A stretch of 64,000 bases of DNA. Origin: Gemmobacter caeruleus. GTDB lineage: Bacteria; Pseudomonadota; Alphaproteobacteria; Rhodobacterales; Rhodobacteraceae. The notes under the pieces are model-generated. The model worked only from the letters and a program-made list of their open reading frames with translations, was not told the DNA's origin and made no database searches. Below, in pieces: positions 3,797 to 30,006 of the stretch (positions are counted from its first letter, which is position 1; every line of letters starts with the position of its first letter). Location of the stretch: assembly GCF_008271655.1 (NCBI RefSeq), contig NZ_VKKX01000044.1, positions 109,763-173,762 of the forward strand. Direction: 5' to 3'. The translations under genes and the position numbers were made by a program.

Positions 3797-4876
3797 ATGA
3801 GCTATACGATCCGGGAAATTGCGGCGGCGCTTGGCGCCGAGGCGGCAGGCGATCTGGAACTGCGCGTGTCGCGCGCGGCCGAGCCGCAGGCGGCGGGGCC
3901 GCAGGATCTGGCACTGGCGATGGACCCGAAATATGCCGAAGGGCTGCGCGCCGGCGCCGCAGAGGCGGCGATGCTGTGGCCGGGGGCCGACTGGCAGTCG
4001 CTGGGCCTGAAGGCCGCGCTTTTCGCCCCGCGTTCGCGTCTGGCGATGGCGGGCCTCAGCCGGATGATGGATCCTGGCCCCGAGATCGCGCCAGGCATCC
4101 ATGCCAGCGCGGTGATCGACCCGAGCGCCGAGATCGGCGCCGAGGCCGCCATTGGCCCCTTTGTGGTGATCGGGCGGGACGTGCGGATCGGCGCGCGGGC
4201 GCGGATCGCCAGCCATGTCAGCATTTCCGAAGGCGCCTCAATCGGTTGCGATGCGTTACTCATGCAGGGTGTGCGGATCGGGTCGCAGGTTACCATCGGC
4301 GACCGCTTCATCGGGCAGCCGGGCTGCGTGATCGGGGGCGACGGGTTTTCCTTCGTCACGCCGGAAAAGAGCGGGGTAGAGGAAATCCGCGCAACCCTTG
4401 GACATCGCGACGAAATCCGCGAACAGACCTGGACGCGGATCCACAGCCTGGGCGCTGTGACGCTGGGCGATGACGTGGAGGTCGGCGCCAATGCCACCAT
4501 CGACAAGGGCACGATCCGCGACACCTCGGTCGGGCGCGGCAGCAAGATCGACAATCTGGTGCATCTGGGCCATAACGTGCAGGTCGGCGAGGATTGCCTG
4601 ATCTGCGGCCAGGTTGGCGTTGCCGGATCGACCCGGATCGGCAATCGCGTGGTGCTGGCGGGGCAATGTGGGGTCAGCGACAACATCTTTGTCGGCGATG
4701 ACGTGATCGCGGGCGGGTCGTCCAAGATCTTTACCAATGTGCCGGCGGGTCGGGTGATCCTGGGCAATCCGGCGGTGAAGATGGAAACCCAGGTCGAGAT
4801 CAACAAGGCGCTGCGCCGCCTCCCGCGTCTGGCGGCAACGGTGGCCGAGCTTCAGAAACTTGTTTCAAAACTGTGA
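3797..4876 (+). CDS. lpxD: UDP-3-O-acylglucosamine N-acyltransferase LpxD
   Basis: A 359-aa member of the left-handed beta-helix acyltransferases; it adds the 3-hydroxyacyl chain to N2 of UDP-3-O-acyl-glucosamine in lipid A synthesis, using acyl-ACP. The N-terminal uridine-binding domain is followed by many hexapeptide repeats (for example IGPFVVIGRDVRIG, VGEDCLICGQVGVAG). The catalytic His is in NLVHLGHNVQVGED near residue 257. Length matches the family (about 340-360). It is not in the usual bamA-lpxD-fabZ-lpxA cluster; instead it is followed within 42 nt by an acyl carrier protein and a ketoacyl synthase, suggesting that those two serve a special lipid A acyl chain (inference). Confidence 0.95.
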   Translation: MSYTIREIAAALGAEAAGDLELRVSRAAEPQAAGPQDLALAMDPKYAEGLRAGAAEAAMLWPGADWQSLGLKAALFAPRSRLAMAGLSRMMDPGPEIAPGIHASAVIDPSAEIGAEAAIGPFVVIGRDVRIGARARIASHVSISEGASIGCDALLMQGVRIGSQVTIGDRFIGQPGCVIGGDGFSFVTPEKSGVEEIRATLGHRDEIREQTWTRIHSLGAVTLGDDVEVGANATIDKGTIRDTSVGRGSKIDNLVHLGHNVQVGEDCLICGQVGVAGSTRIGNRVVLAGQCGVSDNIFVGDDVIAGGSSKIFTNVPAGRVILGNPAVKMETQVEINKALRRLPRLAATVAELQKLVSKL

Positions 4877-4918
4877 GATGACCCCCATATCTTCCCGGCA
4901 AGGGATCAGGAGGTGCAT

Positions 4919-5188
4919 ATGACGCAGAACGTGACCGAGCGGGTGATCGCCATTCTGGCCGATCAGGCGATGATGGATCCGGCGGCGATCCGGCTGGAGG
5001 ATACGCTGGCGGATCTGGGGCTCGACAGTCTGGGGCTGGTGGAAAGCCTGTTCGCCCTTGAGGAGGCGTTCGACATTTCGGTGCCGTTCAACGCCAATGA
5101 GCCGGCCAAGTCGGATTTCGACCTGTCGTCGGTCGCCGCGATCATCGCGGCGGTGGAGGGGCTGGTCGCCGAAGCGCGGGCCGCATGA
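4919..5188 (+). CDS. Acyl carrier protein linked to lpxD
   Basis: An 89-aa ACP. The motif LGLDSLGLVE carries the serine (S37) expected to receive 4'-phosphopantetheine, followed by an acidic helix II (ESLFALEEAFDI). The ATG at 4919 is preferred over a GTG 6 nt upstream because AGGAGG sits exactly 5 nt before it. It differs from a canonical AcpP (the typical DSLDTVEL sequence is DSLGLVESL here), so it is probably a specialised ACP. The stop overlaps the next start (ATGA), so ACP and ketoacyl synthase should be made in a fixed ratio. Similar dedicated ACPs such as AcpXL supply long acyl chains to lipid A in Rhizobiales; homology to AcpXL itself is not obvious by eye. Confidence 0.9.
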   Translation: MTQNVTERVIAILADQAMMDPAAIRLEDTLADLGLDSLGLVESLFALEEAFDISVPFNANEPAKSDFDLSSVAAIIAAVEGLVAEARAA

Positions 5189-18377: not shown

Positions 18378-19187
18378 TCAGGCCTCCAGCTCGATCCAGA
18401 CCGGCACATGGTCCGAGGGTTTCTCTCCGGCGCGCTCGGCCTTGTCGATGCCGCTGCCCGTCAGCAGGTCGGCCGCCTGGGGCGACAGCAGCAGATGGTC
18501 AATGCGGATGCCGTTGTTCCGTTCCCAGGCGCCGGCCTGATAATCCCAGAAGGTATACACCCCCGGCTGCGGGTGCTGCGCCCGGATCGCCTCGGTATAG
18601 CCGAGGTTCAGGATCCGCCGGAACGCGGCGCGGCTTTGCGGCAGGAACAGCGCGTCGCGGGTCCAGGTTTCGGGGCGGGCGGCGTCTTCGGGCTGGGGGA
18701 TGATGTTGTAATCGCCCGCCAGCACCACCGGCTCTTCGGTCGCCAGCAGATCGGCGGCGCGCGCGCGCATCCGCTCCATCCAGGCCAGCTTGTAGCCGTA
18801 TTTGCCGCTGGCCTCGGGCTGATCGGCGGCGTCGAAGGTGACGGGGTTGCCGTTGGGCAGATAAAGCCCGCACAGCCGCACCGCGCGGCTTTCGCCGATC
18901 ACCGTCGCTTCGATCCAGCGGGCCTGTTCGTCGCTCTCGTCGCCGGGCAGGCCGCGCCTCACATCCTCCAGCGGCAGGCGCGACAGGATCGCCACGCCGT
19001 TAAAGCCTTTCTGCCCATGGGTTTCCACGCGCCAGCCCAGATCCTCGAACAGGGCGCGGGGAAAGGCCTCGTCCACCGACTTGATTTCCTGCAAGGCCAC
19101 GACATCGGGCCGCGCGTGATCGAGCCAGCGGGGCAGGGCCTCCAGTCGCGCCTTGATGCCGTTGATGTTGAAGGTTGCGATCTTCAT
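18378..19187 (-). CDS. xthA: Exodeoxyribonuclease III (XthA/ExoA family)
   Basis: A 269-aa Mg-dependent AP endonuclease/3'-exonuclease of the endonuclease-exonuclease-phosphatase fold, acting in base excision repair. It begins MKIATFNINGIKARLEALP (metal and phosphate site Asn), then LQEIKSVDEAFP (metal Glu), AGDYNIIPQPEDAA (catalytic Asp, Asn), YTFWDYQAGAWERNNGIRIDHLL, and the terminal SDHVPVWIELE (catalytic His). Length is typical. It is divergent from the LMPCSN-peptide locus, so their control region is shared. Confidence 0.95.
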   Translation of the reverse strand: MKIATFNINGIKARLEALPRWLDHARPDVVALQEIKSVDEAFPRALFEDLGWRVETHGQKGFNGVAILSRLPLEDVRRGLPGDESDEQARWIEATVIGESRAVRLCGLYLPNGNPVTFDAADQPEASGKYGYKLAWMERMRARAADLLATEEPVVLAGDYNIIPQPEDAARPETWTRDALFLPQSRAAFRRILNLGYTEAIRAQHPQPGVYTFWDYQAGAWERNNGIRIDHLLLSPQAADLLTGSGIDKAERAGEKPSDHVPVWIELEA

Positions 19188-19519
19188 GCCGGTGCCCTTT
19201 TCCCGCCGCTGACCCCCTCTATCGCCCGCGCCCTGCTATATCGCAAGGCTTTCGCGGTTTGGGGGCGAGAACCGCCGTGTTAACACATTGTTAATACTTG
19301 CGAATCAATCTTGCCGCGTCTCCCTGTGGACAATTTACCCGCTCCGGTGCGGTGGATAACTCGGTCGGGGCGCAGTATTCTGAATGCCGCCATATGGTTA
19401 ATGGCCCCCGGCTGTGTGGACAAGTCGGCGCGCAACCTGTGGATGCAATTTTGTTTGAAAAAACAATCATTTGGCGCAACCGTGAGAGGACAATCCTGCT
19501 CAATTACGGAGATCCCATC
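19188..19519. other. Divergent control region of exonuclease III and the LMPCSN-peptide cassette
   Basis: 332 nt without a supported gene. From 19278 to 19316 it is A/T-rich with GTTAAC and TTGTTAATA; 19325-19446 holds four DnaA-box-like sites; 19451-19466 is a perfect hairpin TTGTTT-GAAA-AAACAA. An in-frame open stretch leads from 19298 into the peptide gene, but it lacks a ribosome-binding site and covers these sites, so it is treated as leader. Confidence 0.55.
19325..19446 (-). promoter_or_regulatory. Cluster of four DnaA-box-like sites
   Basis: All four face the same way (given on the minus strand): TTGTCCACA at 19325-19333, TTATCCACC at 19351-19359, TTGTCCACA at 19415-19423, GCATCCACA at 19438-19446. 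Against the consensus TTATCCACA they have 1, 1, 1 and 2 mismatches. They lie between an A/T-rich stretch and the peptide gene. Binding by DnaA is inferred. Confidence 0.5.
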
Positions 19520-19774
19520 ATGAGCGCACTGCGGAAAATCCAAGCCGAAACCACGCTGGAGACCATCGCCGACATGTCGATGGGCCTCGCGGCCGATCTG
19601 ATGCCCTGCTCGAATGTCGAGGGCACCGAGATGATCCTGGGCGGCGCGACCGCGCTGATGCCCTGCTCCAACGTGGAGACCGGCGTCGCCGCCGACCTGA
19701 TGCCCTGCTCCAACATCGAAACCGGCGACATGACCGCAGGTGCCGGCGTGGCGCTGATGCCCTGCTCGAACTGA
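19520..19774 (+). CDS. LMPCSN-repeat peptide (84 aa), candidate multi-core precursor
   Basis: 84 aa from ATG 19520, with GGAG 8 nt upstream. The first 26 residues (MSALRKIQAETTLETIADMS at the start) look like a leader helix with charged and hydrophobic faces. The rest is four repeats of LMPCSN, each preceded by A(A/T/V)(D/A) and, except the last, followed by (V/I)E and G or TG. Cysteines are at 30, 49, 63 and 82, so spacing alternates 19, 14, 19; every Cys lies in Pro-Cys-Ser-Asn and the protein ends exactly after the fourth LMPCSN. There is no signal peptide and no membrane segment. It resembles repeated-core precursors of ribosomally made, modified peptides (RiPPs), but a metal- or redox-binding protein is also possible. 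A GC hairpin without T-run separates it from the next gene, which could keep this mRNA more abundant. I recognise no characterised homologue. Confidence 0.75.
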   Translation: MSALRKIQAETTLETIADMSMGLAADLMPCSNVEGTEMILGGATALMPCSNVETGVAADLMPCSNIETGDMTAGAGVALMPCSN

Positions 19775-19785
19775 GCGGAACGCGA

Positions 19786-19821
19786 CCCCCGTTTCCCGTG
19801 CCGCCCGGCCGGGAACGGGGG
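19786..19821 (+). terminator. Strong intercistronic stem-loop after the peptide gene (attenuator or stabiliser)
   Basis: CCCCCGTTTCCCG (19786-19798) pairs with CGGGAACGGGGG (19810-19821), a 12-bp stem with one bulged T. No T-run follows, so partial termination or protection of the 3' end of the peptide message is more likely than full termination. Confidence 0.5.
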
Positions 19822-19888
19822 CTCCCCGTCGTGACGGCCGGGCCAGAGTTGCGTCCCGGCGCCACATGCACGGGACGGGGAGGGTGAC

Positions 19889-20998
19889 ATGTCCAATGTG
19901 GTTTCCTTTGCAAGCCTTGCGCGGGCGCCGCGCGTAGCGGGGCAGGCTGTGCCGCAGGCCAACGGGGCCGGGGCGCTGCTGGCCGTTTTCGCCCATCACC
20001 GCCGCCGTCAGGGCGATGCCTGGTGGCTGAAGGAAAATGCCGAACTCCTGATGATCCTTGCCGCACTCGGGCGCAAGCCGGGCGATCTGGGCCTGGCGGC
20101 CTATCAGCCGTTTTACGAGGGCGCGGCCGAGATGGTGACTTTTCACCCGCAATATTACCGGCTGATCCTCGGCGTGGTGACCGCGCTCGAATCGCTGGGC
20201 TATCCCGGCGATCTGGGGCCGCGCCTGGCGCAATGGATCGCCGCCGAGGGCTGGATCGAGAGCGAGGTGAACGACCTGCAACGCGCCGAGGTGCGGCATC
20301 TGCTGGCGCGCAATGGCGTGACGCTGGACTGCCCGGGGCTGGATCAGCGGCTGATCGGCTTTCTGTCGCGGCCCGCCAGTTTTGCCCTGCCCAATCCGCG
20401 CGCGGCCTATGATCTGCTGCATGTGGTGTTCTACCTGTCCGATTACGGCCGGCGCCTGATCGACCTGCCCGAAGCCGCGATCGAAAGCCTGCTGATGCTG
20501 GGTTGCCTCGCGCATCTGGAACAGAATGGCGATCTCTTGGGCGAGGTGCTGCTGGCGCTGCATTATGCGGGTCAGGCGCTGCCGCCGCTCTGGCGCGATC
20601 ATCTGCGCGCCGAGACCGCGGCCTTTCGGGTGGAAACCGTGCCCTGCCGCGATTCTTCGGACGCTTACCACAATTTTCTTGTCAATCAGTGGTTGATGGG
20701 CACTATGGGGGAAAGTGCTTTTCAGGATATTCCTTCGGCAGGTGCCATGAGCTTTCGCCTTACCCGCCCCGTTATCGCACCACTGCTGGAGTGGTCGCAG
20801 GCCCTCAAGGGCCTTGGCGCGCAGCGAAGCGGCGACTGGCCGGAGATGCGCGTGGCCTGCGCGCCGCAACTCTCCGATCAGGCACTGGCAGTGGCCGATG
20901 CGGGGGCGGCGGGGTCGCCCTTGTTCGACCGCTTCTTCACCAGTTTTGCGCGCGCCGCCGGACCGGCCGCGCCGCCGCTGCGCCGGAAGCTCGCATGA
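19889..20998 (+). CDS. Uncharacterised 369-aa partner protein of the LMPCSN peptide
   Basis: ATG at 19889 with GGGGAGG 5 nt upstream. The protein is soluble and almost wholly helical by composition. Notable segments: FHPQYYRLILGVVTALESLG, AYDLLHVVFYLSDYGRR (a His-x5-Ser-Asp arrangement that could be a catalytic or ligand site), LLMLGCLAHLEQNGDLLGEV and VPCRDSSDAYHNFLVNQWL with Cys, Asp and His. The helical-repeat pattern suggests an alpha/alpha-type barrel, but I do not recognise a characterised family. It overlaps the exporter gene by 4 nt (ATGA) and follows the repeat-peptide gene by 114 nt, so a role in binding, modifying or releasing the peptide is the simplest reading (inference). Confidence 0.75.
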   Translation: MSNVVSFASLARAPRVAGQAVPQANGAGALLAVFAHHRRRQGDAWWLKENAELLMILAALGRKPGDLGLAAYQPFYEGAAEMVTFHPQYYRLILGVVTALESLGYPGDLGPRLAQWIAAEGWIESEVNDLQRAEVRHLLARNGVTLDCPGLDQRLIGFLSRPASFALPNPRAAYDLLHVVFYLSDYGRRLIDLPEAAIESLLMLGCLAHLEQNGDLLGEVLLALHYAGQALPPLWRDHLRAETAAFRVETVPCRDSSDAYHNFLVNQWLMGTMGESAFQDIPSAGAMSFRLTRPVIAPLLEWSQALKGLGAQRSGDWPEMRVACAPQLSDQALAVADAGAAGSPLFDRFFTSFARAAGPAAPPLRRKLA

Positions 20999-21915
20999 CG
21001 CTGCCGCAGCCCCGCACCGCGCTGAAGCTCAGCGCCCTGCTCGGGGCCGCGCTGACCATTGTGAATACGCTGGTGGGCGTTTCGACCGATGCCCTGGCCA
21101 AGGGGCTGGTGGCGCATCATGCCGCGCCGCAACTGATGGCGCTGTCGGCCAGCCTTGCGGTGGTGATCGGGCTGGGCGCCGTGGCAGGCGGGCAGGGGCG
21201 CCGCATCCTTGCGACCGCGACGCCGCGCCGGGTGGCGCTGCGCTCGACGCTGGCCGCGTTCAGCACGATCGGGTTCTTTCTGGCGCTGCGCGATCTGCCC
21301 TTCGTGCAGATGTTCCTTTTCATGGGGTTGATGCCCATCCTGGGCGCGCTGCTGTCGGGGCTGATCCTGCGGGAAAGGCTGCGCCCGGGCATCTGGGCGG
21401 CTTTGGCGCTTGGCTTTGGCGGCATGGTGCTGATGGTGCCGGGCGGGCTGACGGGCCTGGGCCCGGGCCATGGCTGGGGGTTTTTCGCCACGCTGTGCGG
21501 CGCGGGATCCATCGTGCTGTCGCGCGGCATCTGCCGCAGCCATACCCATGCCTTCGCGCAGGTTTTCTACGCGCAACTGGCCTGTGCCACGCTGGGCCTC
21601 GTGCTGCTGCCCTGGTATTGGCAGCCGATGACCGCGGCCGATCTGGGGTTGCTCGGGCTCTATACGCTCTGCCTGCTGACGACGCGCTGGCTCATGGTGG
21701 TGATCGTGCGGCTGCTGCCGGCCTATGTCGCCATGCAGATCGCCAATATCCAGTTCGTCTGGATGGTGCTGGTCGGCGAAACCGTATTCGGCGAGACGAC
21801 GGCGCTTGCCACCTGGGCGGGCTCCGCGCTGATCATCGCTGCCGGGGTCTGGCTGGTGCTGGCGCAGCGCAGCCCCGCCCCGCCGGTCGCGGCCGCGCCA
21901 GTGCCGGCCGAGTGA
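20995..21915 (+). CDS. DMT-superfamily (EamA) exporter coupled to the peptide cassette
   Basis: A 306-aa inner-membrane protein with about ten membrane helices in two EamA halves; the first half includes LPFVQMFLFMGLMPILGALL and LILRERLRPGIWAALALGFGG (the conserved E-R-P region), the second LLPAYVAMQIANIQFVWMVL and VGETVFGETT. EamA proteins export small metabolites, often amino acids, nucleosides or pigments. The ATG at 20995 overlaps the preceding stop by 4 nt; the open frame upstream is a shadow of the 369-aa gene. If the cassette makes a modified peptide, its cleaved product could be the substrate, though DMT proteins exporting peptides would be unusual. Confidence 0.88.
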   Translation: MTLPQPRTALKLSALLGAALTIVNTLVGVSTDALAKGLVAHHAAPQLMALSASLAVVIGLGAVAGGQGRRILATATPRRVALRSTLAAFSTIGFFLALRDLPFVQMFLFMGLMPILGALLSGLILRERLRPGIWAALALGFGGMVLMVPGGLTGLGPGHGWGFFATLCGAGSIVLSRGICRSHTHAFAQVFYAQLACATLGLVLLPWYWQPMTAADLGLLGLYTLCLLTTRWLMVVIVRLLPAYVAMQIANIQFVWMVLVGETVFGETTALATWAGSALIIAAGVWLVLAQRSPAPPVAAAPVPAE

Positions 21916-21928
21916 CCGGCGCCGGATT

Positions 21929-22279
21929 TCAGACCGAAAAAGACGTGCCGCAGCCGCAACTGGTGGTCGCATTCGGGTTTTCGATGACGAAGCGCGCGCC
22001 GATCAGTTCCTCGGTGAAGTCGATCACCGCGTTTTGCAGAAAGGGCAGCGAGACCGGATCGACCAGCACCTGCTGGCCGTCCTTTTCCAGAATCAGGTCA
22101 TCGGCAGCGGCATCGTCCAGCCGGATGTCATATTGAAAGCCCGAACAGCCGCCGCCCTCTACCGCGACACGCAGCGCCTTGCGGGCGCCGGTCAGTTCGG
22201 CGATTTCGGCCAGACGGGCAAAGGCGCGGTCGGTCACGCGGGGTTGTGCGGCATCGGGGGGAAGATGCAGGTCGATCAT
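21929..22279 (-). CDS. erpA: Iron-sulfur cluster insertion protein, HesB/IscA/ErpA family
   Basis: 116 aa from ATG 22279 (AAGGAAAATCCG before it); the frame runs further upstream but without family similarity. An A-type Fe-S carrier: the three conserved cysteines are C in EGGGCSGFQYDI and the C-terminal pair in TTSCGCGTSFSV. These proteins pass [2Fe-2S] or [4Fe-4S] clusters from the ISC/SUF scaffold to target enzymes. ErpA versus IscA cannot be separated by eye. It is convergent with the exporter gene (13 nt) and divergent from dgt (67 nt). Confidence 0.92.
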   Translation of the reverse strand: MIDLHLPPDAAQPRVTDRAFARLAEIAELTGARKALRVAVEGGGCSGFQYDIRLDDAAADDLILEKDGQQVLVDPVSLPFLQNAVIDFTEELIGARFVIENPNATTSCGCGTSFSV

Positions 22280-22346
22280 CGGATTTTCCTTAGCCTTCAT
22301 GGGCTTTTCCCCATATAGGGAAGCCAGCCTTTTGAAACAAGTTCCG

Positions 22347-23519
22347 ATGACCCAGACCTTCGCTCCCTTTGCCTGCCAGCCCGACGCCTCGCGCGGGCGG
22401 CGCCATGCCGAAATCATGTCCACCTTCCGCTCGCCCTTTCAGCGCGACCGCGACCGGATCATCCATTCCTCGGCCTTTCGCCGGTTGAAACACAAGACGC
22501 AGGTCTTCATCGAACATGAGGGCGATTACTATCGCACCCGCCTGACCCATTCGATCGAGGTGGCGCAGGTGGCGCGCACCATCTCGGGCGTGCTGGGGCT
22601 GAACAGCGATCTGGCGGAATGTATCGCGCTGGCGCATGATCTGGGGCACACCCCCTTTGGCCATACCGGCGAGGATGCGCTGGCGCGGCTGATGGAACCC
22701 TATGGCGGTTTCGATCACAACGCGCAGGCCCTGCGGATCGTCACCCGGCTGGAGCGGCACTATGCGGGCTTTGACGGGCTGAACCTGACCTGGGAAAGCC
22801 TGGAGGGCATCGCCAAGCATAACGGGCCGGTCACCGGCCCCAATGCCGATGCCAAACATGCCGGCCCCTTGCCCTATGCCCTGGCCGAGGTGAATGGCGA
22901 CTGGGATCTGGAACTGGACACCCATGCCAGCGCCGAGGCCCAGGTGGCCGCCATCGCCGATGACGTGGCCTATAGCCATCACGACCTGCATGACGGTCTG
23001 CGCTCGGGCCTGTTCACCGAGGAAGACCTGATGGAGCTTCCGGTCACCGCGCCCGCCTTCGAGGAGGTGGACCGCCTCTATCCCGGGCTGGAAAAGATGC
23101 GTCGCCGCCACGAGGCGCTGCGCCGCGTCTTCGGCCGCATGGTCGAGGACGTGATCCATGTCGCCCAGAACCGGCTGGAGGCCGCGCAGCCGAAATCGGT
23201 TGATGACATCCGGCATATGGGCATGACGATCATCCGCTTTTCCAAGCCGCTCTATCAGGAACTCAAGGCGGTGCGCAGCTTCCTGTTCCACCGGATGTAT
23301 CGCGCGCCCTCGGTGGTGAAGATGCGGGCCGAGGTGACGGCGATGCTGGATGATCTGTTCCCGCTCTTTCTCAGTCGCCCCGAACTGCTGCCCGAGGAAT
23401 GGCGCGCCGATATCGAGGCGGCGACGGACGAGACGCAACTGGCGCGCATCGTCGCCGATTACGTCGCCGGCATGACAGACCGCTTTGCGATCCAGGAACA
23501 TGGACGTTTGATCGGCTGA
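22347..23519 (+). CDS. dgt: Deoxyguanosinetriphosphate triphosphohydrolase-like protein
   Basis: A 390-aa HD-domain dNTP triphosphohydrolase, producing deoxynucleoside and triphosphate and thereby limiting dNTP pools. Metal-binding HD residues: H in YRTRLTHSIEVAQVART, HD in IALAHDLGHTPFGHTGE, and a downstream D in AAIADDVAYSHHDLHDGL. N-terminal PFQRDRDRIIHSSAFRRLKHKTQVF is the family signature. The start at 22347 is chosen because upstream codons overlap the erpA gene on the other strand. The Alphaproteobacterial type is shorter than E. coli Dgt (505 aa), as here. Confidence 0.93.
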   Translation: MTQTFAPFACQPDASRGRRHAEIMSTFRSPFQRDRDRIIHSSAFRRLKHKTQVFIEHEGDYYRTRLTHSIEVAQVARTISGVLGLNSDLAECIALAHDLGHTPFGHTGEDALARLMEPYGGFDHNAQALRIVTRLERHYAGFDGLNLTWESLEGIAKHNGPVTGPNADAKHAGPLPYALAEVNGDWDLELDTHASAEAQVAAIADDVAYSHHDLHDGLRSGLFTEEDLMELPVTAPAFEEVDRLYPGLEKMRRRHEALRRVFGRMVEDVIHVAQNRLEAAQPKSVDDIRHMGMTIIRFSKPLYQELKAVRSFLFHRMYRAPSVVKMRAEVTAMLDDLFPLFLSRPELLPEEWRADIEAATDETQLARIVADYVAGMTDRFAIQEHGRLIG

Positions 23520-25850: not shown

Positions 25851-26571
25851 CTTTCCGCAAGAATGACAAAATCATGGCCGCCCCGCCGGAGTTGTGCGGG
25901 GCTTGGCGTCTTGATTCGGCCTTTATCAACCTTTCCAGTATGTTGACCGTCGCGCTGATGGCGCCGGTCCGCGATTCCCGTGGGGATTGGTGCCCCCGCG
26001 CGAACGCCCGTCTCGAAATGCGGCGAAAATGTCCTACAGGGTTAACGGCGGCGTGGGCCGAGCGACCAGGCGGGTTTGCGGAAACAATCCGATGGGTTTT
26101 GCCGTTGCCGGGCCGCAGACCTGCACCTTTGTTGCAAAGTCGGAAACAATGCCGCCCATACCCCCCGCTTTTCCGACGCCTCTGGGGCGGCCAAACCGGG
26201 CAGAACTGGGGCAAAGGGGGAATTTGCCGTATTTTTTGCACTTTTCGTAAAGGATAACAAAAGGTATCAAGAAGGGGTCTTGCTGGGAAAGACATCTGGC
26301 CGTGGGGGCGGTCTCAAATGGTGTGTGGCGTCTTTGGGCGCAGGAGTATGGTTAAGGCTGCCAAGGGACCGGGTGCTGCGCCCGGTTTACAGAAACGATG
26401 ATTTCCCGCGTCCGCTTCGGCGGTTCTGGCACTTTTCCCTGATCTACCACATCGCGCGACCTGGCCTTCTGGGCGCAGGGCCTTTGCACAAGGCCGCGCC
26501 GGTCAACGCCCTTTCGGGGGCACATGAACGGTTGGACGGGCCACGGCCCTGCTGGGATGAGGAAGATCAAT
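25851..26571 (+). other. Gene-free region between tRNA-Leu and the first RTX-Hint gene
   Basis: 720 nt. Short open frames on both strands lack ribosome-binding sites and overlap the tRNA or each other, so none is called. Visible items: a weak hairpin GCCCCGC/GCGGGGC (25880-25886 with 25896-25902), perhaps the tRNA terminator; a 10-bp direct repeat CGGAAACAAT at 26079-26088 and 26141-26150; an inverted repeat CTTTG-TTG-CAAAG at 26127-26139; and an A/T-rich stretch at 26221-26275 that is the best candidate for the RTX promoter and leader. Confidence 0.5.
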
Positions 26572-29500
26572 ATGCCGGTTTTCGCGCTGTACAACTTGGA
26601 TGATGCAGGCAGCACCGTTCAGGATGCCGCGCTTGGCAATGGCGCGCAGAACGGCGTTTACCTGAATGGCGCGGGGTCGAATGGCACCCAGGCCGTGCTG
26701 GATGGCACGGATGACCTGGTGAAGATCTGGCCGTCCGAGACGTTCCAGCTGGATCGCGGCACGCTGGAGGTGCAGTTCACCTCCTCGACCACGCCGCAGA
26801 CCGAAGTGCAGACCATTCTGGCGCGCGACAGCATCGGCGACCATGCCGGCGGCTACAGCATCGAGCTGCTGCCCGACGGGTCGCTGCTGATCACCCATGA
26901 AACCGAAGGCGGCAGCGTCACCTACTCGACCGGCGCGGGCTTCATGTCGCCGGGCGACGAGGTCAACCTGTCCTATTCCTGGGATGTCGCCAATGGCGGC
27001 CATCTGGTGATCGAGAACCTGACCGACGCGACCAGCTTCAACGCCGAAACGCCGGCAGGGCTGACCATGGATCAGGGCGATATCAGCCAGCCCTGGACCG
27101 TCGGCGCCGGGCAGAACACCTCGGCCCCCGATCTGCTGAACAATATCGACCAGCATTTCGCCGGGTCGTTCGAATATTTCTCGCTTTCAGATACGGTGGA
27201 CAATTTCGGCGGGCCCGATGGCATCGTGCGCGGCACCGAGGGCGGCGATCTGATCGACCTGACCTATGTCGATCCGACCGATGGCGACCGGATCGACGCG
27301 AATGACGCGCTGATCCCGGGCGATGCGCCCAATGACGACCGCGTGGTCGCGGGCGGTGGCGATGATACTATCCTGGCCAATCTGGGCGATGACACGGTGG
27401 ATGCCGGCGCGGGCAATGACCAGGTCGATGGCGGCGACGGCAATGACCTCTTGGAAGGCGGCGCCGGCGACGACACGCTGTATGGTGGCGCGGGCGATGA
27501 CACGCTGCTGGGCGGCGATGGCAATGACGTGGTTGATGGCGTCACCGGCAATGAGCTGATCGACACCCGCAATTCCGGCGACGAAGGCTCGCCCGACCGT
27601 GCCTTCCCGGGGCTTTACCCCGCCGATGGCAACCCCGATGACGACCGCGATCTGGTGCGCGCGGGCGCCGGGGCCGACACGATCATGACCGGCGACGACG
27701 CCGATACGATCCATGCCGGCGGCGGCAATGACCTGATCTATGCCGGCGTCGATGCCGACAGCGTGACCGCGGCCGGCGGCGACGATACCGTCTATGCGGG
27801 CGAGGGCAGCGATACCGTGACCGGCGATCTGGGCGATGACCTGATCTATGGCGGCACGGGCGACACGGCCTCCGATCCCACCCATCTGACCGATGACACC
27901 GACCCCGACCCGGACAATAACCGGGACGCGCTTTATGGCGGCCTGGGCGATGACACGATCTATGGCGAGGATGACGACGACACCATCTATGGTGGCCAGG
28001 ACAATGACCTGATCTTTGGCGGGATCGACGAGGATCTGGTCTATGGCGGCGAAGGCAATGACACGCTGCATGGCGATGCAGGGGCCGATACGCTGATCGG
28101 GGGCTACGACCGCGATCTGTTCATCGGTGGCAATGTCGGCGATTTCGTGGACGGGTCGGAAACCGGCGACGATTACGATACGCTCGACCTGCGCGGCTCG
28201 GGTCCGCTGTCGATCGTCTATGATGCCGACAATGCCGAAAACGGCACCGTCACCTTCTATGATGCCGATGGCGCGGCGACCGGCACCATGCGCTTTGTGA
28301 ATATCGAGAATGTCATCACCGACCCGCCGGTCCGCGATGGCTGGGTCGATGGCACCGGCGGCGGCGATCTGATCGACACCGGCTATACCGGCGACCCCGA
28401 TGGTGACCGGATCGACGCCAATGACGCGATCCTGCCCGGCGATGCCCCGAATGACGACCGCGTGCGCGCGGGCGACGGCGATGATACCGTGCGGTCTGGC
28501 GCGGGCGACGATCTGGTCTATGGCGGCGCCGGCAATGACGATGTCGATGGCGGCGAGCGCGATGACAGCCTGCTGGGCGAGGGCGGCAATGACACGCTGA
28601 CTGGCGGGCAGGGCAGCGATCTGGTCGATGGCGGCGATGGCAATGACGTGATCGACACCGCCGGCGGCGGCGCCTATCCCATGCCCGACATGGGCTATCC
28701 GGGGCTTTATCCCGCCGACAGCGACCCGACCGACGATCTGGACACTGTCTATGGCGGCGCGGGCGATGACACGATCCGCACCGGCGACGATGCCGACCTG
28801 ATCGACGGCGGCACCGGCAATGACCTGATCGACGGCGGCATCGACGCCGACACCATCACCGCGGGCGATGGCAACGACACCGTCATCGGCGGCGAGGGGT
28901 CGGATCTGATCGACCTCGGCGCGGGCGACGATCTGGTCTATGGCGGGCTGGATCCCAGCTTCCCCGACGAGCTGAACGTGCCCGACGCCACCGATCTGCG
29001 GCCCGACAATGGCCGCGACACCATCGACGGCGGCGCCGGCAATGACACCATCTTCGGGATGGATGACGATGACAGCCTGAGGGGCGGCGACGGCAATGAT
29101 CTGATCGACGGCGGTATCGACGAGGATACGATCCTGGGCGATGCCGGCAATGACACGATCATCGGCGGCGACGGGGCCGACAACATGGCGGGCGGCGATG
29201 ACCGCGACACCTTCCTTGTCTCGGAGGCGGGTCAGGGCATCGGCGATGTGATCGACGGCAATGAGGGCGGCGACGATTACGACACGCTCGACCTGCGCGG
29301 TGCCGGCCCGCTGCACATCACCTATGACCCGGACAATGTCGAAAACGGCGTGGTCGATTTCCTCGACGGCGACGGCAATGTCACCGGCTCGCTCACCTTC
29401 ACCAATATCGAGAACGTCATCCCCTGCTTCACCCCCGGCACGATGATCGCCACCCCGCGCGGCGAGATCCCGGTCGAGGAACTGAAGGCCGGCGATCGCG

Positions 29501-30006
29501 TCATCACCCGTGACAACGGCATCCAGCAGATCCGCTGGGTGGGCCAGAAATCGCTGAGCTGGGCGGATCTCTCGCTCAACCCGCATCTCAAGCCGATCCT
29601 GATCCGTCAGGGCAGCCTGGGCAATGGCCTGCCGGAACGCGACATGATGGTCAGCCCCAATCACCGCGTGCTGGTGGCCAATGACCGCACCGCGCTCTAT
29701 TTCGACGAACATGAGGTGCTGGTCGCGGCCAAGCATCTGGTGGCCGGGCGTGGCGTGCATGAGGTGGACAGCATGGGCACCGCCTATATCCACTTCATGT
29801 TCGATCGCCACGAGGTCGTGCTGTCGAACGGCGCCTGGACCGAAAGCTTCCAACCCGGCGACTATACGCTCAAGGGCATGGGCAATGCGCAGCGCAACGA
29901 GATCTTCGAACTGTTCCCCGATCTCAAGACCGAACAGGGCCGCGACGATTATGCGGCGGCGCGTCGCACACTGAAAAAGCACGAAGCGCGGCTTTTGCTG
30001 AAATAA
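26572..30006 (+). CDS. RTX calcium-binding protein with C-terminal Hint domain (1144 aa)
   Basis: The ATG at 26572 (MPVFALYNLDDAG...) is chosen over one at 26524 because GAGGAAG lies 6 nt upstream and the family normally opens this way. Order: N-terminal LamG/concanavalin-like domain (about residues 1-210, ending SFEYFSLSD), RTX nonapeptide repeats (GGxGNDxxx) at about 215-940 in two super-blocks each opened by a DPTDGDRIDANDA or DPDGDRIDANDA segment, then a Hint (hedgehog/intein) module from C952 (CFTPGTMIATPRGEIPVEEL) with the second-block HRVLV and HFMFDRHEVVLSNG. There is no N-terminal signal; export by a type I system using C-terminal information is expected. Function is not known: adhesin, surface-layer or matrix protein are options. 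A terminator follows. Confidence 0.9.
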   Translation: MPVFALYNLDDAGSTVQDAALGNGAQNGVYLNGAGSNGTQAVLDGTDDLVKIWPSETFQLDRGTLEVQFTSSTTPQTEVQTILARDSIGDHAGGYSIELLPDGSLLITHETEGGSVTYSTGAGFMSPGDEVNLSYSWDVANGGHLVIENLTDATSFNAETPAGLTMDQGDISQPWTVGAGQNTSAPDLLNNIDQHFAGSFEYFSLSDTVDNFGGPDGIVRGTEGGDLIDLTYVDPTDGDRIDANDALIPGDAPNDDRVVAGGGDDTILANLGDDTVDAGAGNDQVDGGDGNDLLEGGAGDDTLYGGAGDDTLLGGDGNDVVDGVTGNELIDTRNSGDEGSPDRAFPGLYPADGNPDDDRDLVRAGAGADTIMTGDDADTIHAGGGNDLIYAGVDADSVTAAGGDDTVYAGEGSDTVTGDLGDDLIYGGTGDTASDPTHLTDDTDPDPDNNRDALYGGLGDDTIYGEDDDDTIYGGQDNDLIFGGIDEDLVYGGEGNDTLHGDAGADTLIGGYDRDLFIGGNVGDFVDGSETGDDYDTLDLRGSGPLSIVYDADNAENGTVTFYDADGAATGTMRFVNIENVITDPPVRDGWVDGTGGGDLIDTGYTGDPDGDRIDANDAILPGDAPNDDRVRAGDGDDTVRSGAGDDLVYGGAGNDDVDGGERDDSLLGEGGNDTLTGGQGSDLVDGGDGNDVIDTAGGGAYPMPDMGYPGLYPADSDPTDDLDTVYGGAGDDTIRTGDDADLIDGGTGNDLIDGGIDADTITAGDGNDTVIGGEGSDLIDLGAGDDLVYGGLDPSFPDELNVPDATDLRPDNGRDTIDGGAGNDTIFGMDDDDSLRGGDGNDLIDGGIDEDTILGDAGNDTIIGGDGADNMAGGDDRDTFLVSEAGQGIGDVIDGNEGGDDYDTLDLRGAGPLHITYDPDNVENGVVDFLDGDGNVTGSLTFTNIENVIPCFTPGTMIATPRGEIPVEELKAGDRVITRDNGIQQIRWVGQKSLSWADLSLNPHLKPILIRQGSLGNGLPERDMMVSPNHRVLVANDRTALYFDEHEVLVAAKHLVAGRGVHEVDSMGTAYIHFMFDRHEVVLSNGAWTESFQPGDYTLKGMGNAQRNEIFELFPDLKTEQGRDDYAAARRTLKKHEARLLLK

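Follow-up and report, generated by a model that had tools for sequence, protein, structure and literature searches.

What is made by a cassette of three genes in one direction that encode a peptide with four LMPCSN repeats, a helical protein and a transporter? The cassette lies in the window, the whole 64,000-nt stretch of Gemmobacter caeruleus DNA analysed here, and the sequence-only reading had proposed a multi-core RiPP precursor with a partner protein and an exporter. We find that this observation is confirmed and that its interpretation is partly supported. The cassette belongs to a large family. Its features in the window are as follows.

19280..19294, + strand: TTAA-N7-TTAA palindromic site (sequence)
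19325..19333, + strand: DnaA-box-like site TGTGGACAA (sequence pattern)
19415..19423, + strand: second DnaA-box-like site TGTGGACAA (sequence pattern)
19520..19774, + strand: P0001, multi-core precursor peptide, 84 aa (direct reading)
19598..19615, + strand: core unit 1, LMPCSN, residues 27-32 (sequence)
19655..19672, + strand: core unit 2, LMPCSN, residues 46-51 (sequence)
19697..19714, + strand: core unit 3, LMPCSN, residues 60-65 (sequence)
19754..19771, + strand: core unit 4, LMPCSN, residues 79-84, abutting the stop codon (sequence)
19786..19821 (about), + strand: hairpin in the precursor-enzyme intergenic gap (folding)
19889..20998, + strand: P0002, DUF6902 protein, 369 aa, putative peptide-modifying enzyme (Pfam, structure model, invariant residues)
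20995..21915, + strand: P0003, EamA (DMT-type) transporter, 306 aa, putative exporter (Pfam)

P0001 begins with MSALRK, carries Cys at residues 30, 49, 63, and 82, and ends on the fourth LMPCSN, so direct reading agrees with the peptide as first described. The coordinates likewise bear out the one-direction layout, in which the P0003 ORF overlaps the P0002 ORF by 4 nt. The 114-nt gap between P0001 and P0002 folds as a whole at -65 kcal/mol, and the strong hairpin reported after the peptide gene is found there without a T-run after it. P0003 is assigned to EamA by Pfam (E 2.1e-10), as expected of a DMT-type exporter, and most of its NCBIfam matches, none of which reaches its cut-off, are to transporters of small metabolites or amino acids. 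The 369-aa protein had been said to belong to no recognised family, but P0002 is a member of Pfam DUF6902 (PF21843; E 8.5e-102, 341.1 bits vs. a curated cut-off of 27). It also matches DUF6895 (PF21836) over residues 35-236 (E 1.3e-19, 71.1 bits vs. a cut-off of 23.8); DUF6902 is the far better match, and by these profile scores P0002 is a relative of DUF6895 rather than a core member.

A role in anti-phage defence was dropped, as P0001-P0003 show zero matches to PADLOC up to E 0.1. A known structured RNA was also dropped: the region 18900-22400 gave zero Rfam matches up to E 1. Elsewhere in the window, positions 26524-30006 encode a 1160-aa protein rich in Asp/Gly repeats, which we take to resemble calcium-binding RTX repeats; its C-terminal region resembles a Hint domain.

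The precursor family and its pairing with DUF6902

Within the genus, 11/11 genomes searched contain both the homologous peptide and DUF6902, and identity with P0002 is 58-67% for eight DUF6902 proteins from Gemmobacter. Among these relatives the leader is kept while the units number from four to seven, the variation that the sequence-only reading had proposed to look for, and the cores read PCSN, PTSN, PASN, and LCSN. DUF6902 occurs in 108/394 Rhodobacteraceae genomes in a sample of nearly one genome per genus, so that roughly one sampled genus in four of this bacterial family has the cassette. Named genera with the system include Ruegeria, Roseovarius, Shimia, Salipiger, Leisingera, and Marivita.

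A contig scan yielded 425 pattern stretches, of which 360 encode relatives. The best 80 of these 360 were used together with 94 further loci, and the resulting 174 were collapsed by shared last 250 residues of DUF6902 to 148 distinct loci. A repeat precursor lies directly upstream at 145 of them, 141 found by a mechanical repeat search and four (L148, L153, L154, and L158) by reading. At 141/148 loci an upstream ORF contains a 4-mer that occurs three times or more, vs. 82/3645 background ORFs; each locus was scored by the best among several candidate ORFs, and repeated DNA counted in whatever reading frame. The three loci without a precursor are L112, where a run of N occupies the upstream position, L230 at a contig edge, and L159, whose divergent DUF6902 gene (3831-4928) has no upstream precursor visible on reading; the L159 protein may have lost its partner or may use another. 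A precursor query matches 89/394 genomes, and DUF6902 is present in 89/89 of these and the query matches 0/286 DUF6902-negative genomes; this pairing is scored as same genome rather than adjacency, and the query misses the Gemmobacter type. Judged by these sequence comparisons, the pairing of precursor and enzyme is near-strict, in keeping with the expectation that the peptide travels with the 369-aa gene. Homologues with no conserved leader or repeat, and homologues with no such gene nearby, were looked for, and the outcome does not refute the proposal.

The precursors at the 145 loci carry 2-20 units behind a leader whose start, M[S/T]A..K, is kept across the family. The core statistics cover 139 of the 141 mechanically found precursors, as 2 without a core call were left out; these hold 1035 units in total, 3-20 each, with a median of 7. 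The core consists of Phe/Met, any residue, Ser/Thr/Cys, mostly Gly/Ser/Trp, and mostly Ser/Leu/Ala/Asn/Cys. Its third position is Ser/Thr/Cys in 136/139 precursors, Ala in two and Asn in one. Core types by genus include FTSGS, FTSWS, FTSSL, and MPCSN, and 44 distinct consensus pentamers occur among the 139 precursors. The text before the core is often DAVEM or DAVEA and that after it AP, GP, or SP, the units are spaced by 20 or 21 residues in 786/883 cases, and the precursor terminates on a core in 98/139. Cys is not an essential feature of the core: 114/139 consensus cores lack it and Gemmobacter relatives carry PTSN or PASN; a Cys-based metal or disulfide role is therefore rejected as the general function. 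At one locus on the reverse strand (L261), what matched DUF6895 within the family proves to be a gene of the DUF6902 type, preceded by a repeat precursor whose repeated end STSSF falls outside the core rule used for the 139 precursors.

Units within a precursor are 97% alike, a value inflated by picking units at 3 or more of 5 matches, and consensus cores between precursors are 52% alike. Against six equal-length orthologues, P0001 has a pN/pS of 0.32-0.58, and change in its core codons is mostly silent (pN 0-0.09 vs. pS 0.12-0.35). These codon patterns, the recurrence of the peptide throughout the genus, and the excess of repeat ORFs at DUF6902 loci show that the P0001 gene is not a chance ORF. 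Cores that are uniform inside a precursor and different between precursors could reflect a ligand with specificity, and gene conversion alone could give the same pattern. Distances between enzymes correlate with distances between cores after xth distance is controlled for (partial r 0.48, 132 loci, 0/999 permutations). Controlling for eamA weakens the correlation to 0.23 (85 loci, 1/999 permutations), and eamA tracks the core beyond the enzyme (0.16, 10/999 permutations); shared operon history thus explains much of the correlation. The operon moves as a unit, and the coupling of enzyme and core supports specificity, short of proof.

Exporter, genomic site and promoter

An EamA gene was found by tblastn downstream in 113/148 loci, a search that a more distant transporter could escape. 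The other 35, among them the Marivita loci and one locus that lacks downstream sequence, gave no such match, which leaves export unexplained in all 35. The EamA and enzyme genes overlap by 4 nt in 75/96 loci with EamA called as an ORF. Of the layout first proposed, precursor and partner hold; the exporter is optional and does not define the system. The site of the cassette is fixed: xth adjoins it in 142/148 loci, and it precedes erpA in 132 (plus one ambiguous) and dgt in 131, names that we assume for the flanking markers from their sequences. In cassette-free genomes erpA lies within the stretch fetched around xth in 43/53, and gain or loss of the cassette at one site is therefore likely.

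The sequence TGTGGA[T/C]AA, which we take to be a DnaA box, is present on the coding strand in 80/132 precursor upstream regions (9/141 were omitted for an unclear start codon or too little upstream sequence). These promoter sites are conserved in position: of 128 copies, 68 fall between -120 and -101 and 32 between -200 and -181 relative to the start of the precursor, and the usual distance from one box to the next is 75-77, 52-54, or 64-65 nt, near whole helical turns. In the window the two exact sites are spaced by 90 nt, and near matches begin at 19351 and 19438. Boxes occur upstream of xth at 87/142 cassette loci vs. 0/53 cassette-free genomes, a control that covers 700 nt upstream in 53 genomes (265 nt in one), drawn from the 64 cassette-free genomes that have an xth match; this leaves boxes as a part of xth unsupported. 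A single box is not rare genome-wide, with 30 matches in the genome G000 vs. 20 for the reversed control, and background ratios overstate the enrichment because the A+T content of the upstream regions appears to exceed that of coding background. The case for the boxes, drawn from sequence patterns, rests on position, spacing, and the negative control.

The palindromic site TTAA-N7-TTAA presumably resembles a CtrA site and is found in 18/132 upstream regions. The window shows no lasting GC-skew switch, with a small dip near 18-19 kb; a chromosomal origin at the boxes was therefore rejected, and a regulatory reading is preferred, in which DnaA or CtrA would bind at the promoter sites. The intergenic hairpin is probably functional in Gemmobacter, because nine other gaps of the genus also fold into long stems despite diverged sequence, some with short T-runs after them. 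As a family-wide feature it is unsupported, with z < -2 in 25/116 gaps and a mean of -0.8 against mononucleotide shuffles.

Proposed chemistry and comparison with known systems

The structure model of P0002 is nearly all-helical (pLDDT 90.7, pTM 0.90), as the description of a helical protein had implied. DUF6902 has no significant sequence match among PDB chains, and no fold in PDB or BFVD matches P0002 at an E value of 0.001 or lower; weaker hits, GH154 among them, were set aside, and function was not assigned from the fold. In an alignment of eight DUF6902 and four DUF6895-type proteins, the latter with only 15-19% identity to P0002, seven positions are invariant (Y174, H178, G187, D215, E219, Y260, and H261). 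The set H178/D215/E219/H261 would suit acid-base or metal-assisted catalysis. A DUF6895 member is called a lasso-peptide epimerase in the title of Shi et al. (ACS Catal. 2026), as given in the reference list of PMC13352647. The partner had been expected to be of a new type; it is a non-standard enzyme, but it is related to the family that contains this titled epimerase.

DUF6895 matches outside Rhodobacteraceae are rare in the sampled genomes, and a search for further ones in the families of G779 and G849 returned the starting genomes only (1/101 and 1/100). In 4/5 loci read, all but the short match L260 where no peptide gene is visible on reading, the DUF6895-type gene follows a small peptide gene. 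These peptide genes, from other bacteria, lie at L257:6506-6703, L258:7437-7868, L259:6269-6685, and L051:7962-8198; the peptides have leader-like text (AGIID, GIINK) and Trp-containing ends, and two of the four have two repeated units. They possibly form a further RiPP-like family. In the open literature searched, we found no paper on DUF6902, alone or with five of its motifs, and no RiPP paper on a Rhodobacteraceae precursor or core; among the matches listed for roseobacter, RiPP, EamA, and DUF terms, none fits by title.

We propose, with a probability of about one half, that the cassette represents a new RiPP-like class: the enzyme would modify every repeat, with epimerisation as the likeliest reaction, and the products would be exported, genus-specific peptides. 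The ribosomal precursor would provide a short leader followed by a small core in several copies, and the DUF6902 enzyme would recognise the repeated unit and modify every copy. Its most likely chemistry would be epimerisation of a core residue at H178/D215/E219/H261 by an acid-base or metal-assisted mechanism, by analogy with the related DUF6895. Housekeeping proteases may release the units, and EamA, where present, or another exporter may move the product out. The most likely role of the product would be that of a signalling peptide, because the cores are uniform within a genome and different between genera. The epimerase link, made through one DUF6895 title, is the weakest link in the chemistry. 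A bolder version, a previously unreported Rhodobacteraceae RiPP class in which a DUF6902 peptide epimerase would set D-residues in every repeat, DnaA would control the operon by way of the spaced boxes, and the products would be genus-specific D-amino-acid peptide signals with an output tied to replication initiation, seems unlikely to us.

The same RiPP-like pair could carry another DUF6902 chemistry, such as dehydration, cyclisation, proteolysis, or a different change to the side chains or the backbone, with core position 3 as a possible site. We hold this tentatively, as a minority view. The prevalence of Ser/Thr/Cys at that position speaks for it, and DUF6902 and DUF6895 are separate Pfam families whose chemistry may differ at 15-19% identity; however, the seven residues invariant in both families suggest one shared active site. 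A hydroxyl or thiol at core position 3 is also not strictly required, because cores with Ala or Asn and the PASN of one Gemmobacter relative occur.

Two further explanations depart more from modification of the repeats, and we consider each of them improbable. If the peptide were a scaffold for a small metabolite that is then cut off and exported by the EamA (DMT) transporter, the frequent EamA gene and the sub-cut-off transporter matches of P0003 would be accounted for, but the many consensus pentamers poorly fit one fixed small product and the cassette has a single enzyme gene. The peptide might instead stay unmodified and be bound by the DUF6902 protein, as a repeat protein with a structural, regulatory, or metal-binding role. 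The regular Cys placement in P0001 is consistent with this, and a nearly all-helical protein might merely bind a peptide. Against it stand the scarcity of Cys in the consensus cores, the P0001 model, which is mostly disordered (pLDDT 42.8, pTM 0.20) with a helix at residues 3-25 in the leader, the conservation of DUF6902 His, Asp, and Glu positions even at 15-19% identity, and the sister-family member titled an epimerase.

The precursor-enzyme system, which is real and widespread, links DUF6902 and DUF6895, two Pfam domains that lack an assigned function, to ribosomal peptides. What is new is the DUF6902 family of enzymes, the relation of that family to DUF6895, and a promoter that carries DnaA-box-like sites. 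The system is compact, with a single enzyme and a single peptide, and suited to testing in a laboratory host, and the natural variety of cores would supply a ready-made set of substrates if the enzyme is a peptide epimerase. Rhodobacteraceae are best known for acyl-homoserine lactones; if the peptides are signals, they would open a peptide language in this family.

Among known systems, the DUF6895 lasso-peptide epimerase is the nearest, to the extent that its title describes it: P0002 matches the DUF6895 profile and shares the seven invariant positions, and genes of the DUF6895 type likewise have small peptide genes as neighbours in 4/5 loci read. Unlike it, the cassette enzyme belongs to a separate Pfam family and has a multi-core repeat partner, and neither a lasso cyclase nor a leader peptidase gene is recognised among the three cassette proteins, the flanking markers being xth, erpA, and dgt. 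MslH is the lasso-peptide epimerase of MS-271, for which the title states a metal-dependent acid/base mechanism (PMC10406935). It resembles DUF6902 in the function proposed for the latter, epimerisation of a peptide precursor made by the ribosome. MslH differs in having a reported structure, whereas DUF6902 has no significant PDB sequence or fold match, and in acting on the C-terminal residue, whereas DUF6902 must act on internal repeats.

Multi-core precursors are known among RiPPs, for example in cyanobactins and in fungal or plant repeat precursors. Unlike these in general, the cassette has no recognised class-defining enzyme: as had been pointed out from the sequence, no LanB/LanC/LanM or other lanthionine enzyme, YcaO, radical-SAM enzyme, protease, peptidase, or second enzyme is recognised in the three proteins scanned. 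It does have a small ribosomal precursor with a leader and core and an enzyme gene tied to that precursor (145/148 loci; 89/89 genomes), for which we infer a modifying role. The system has one leader, several near-identical cores, and recognition-like text around each core; it works like a multi-core RiPP and is a candidate for formal membership.
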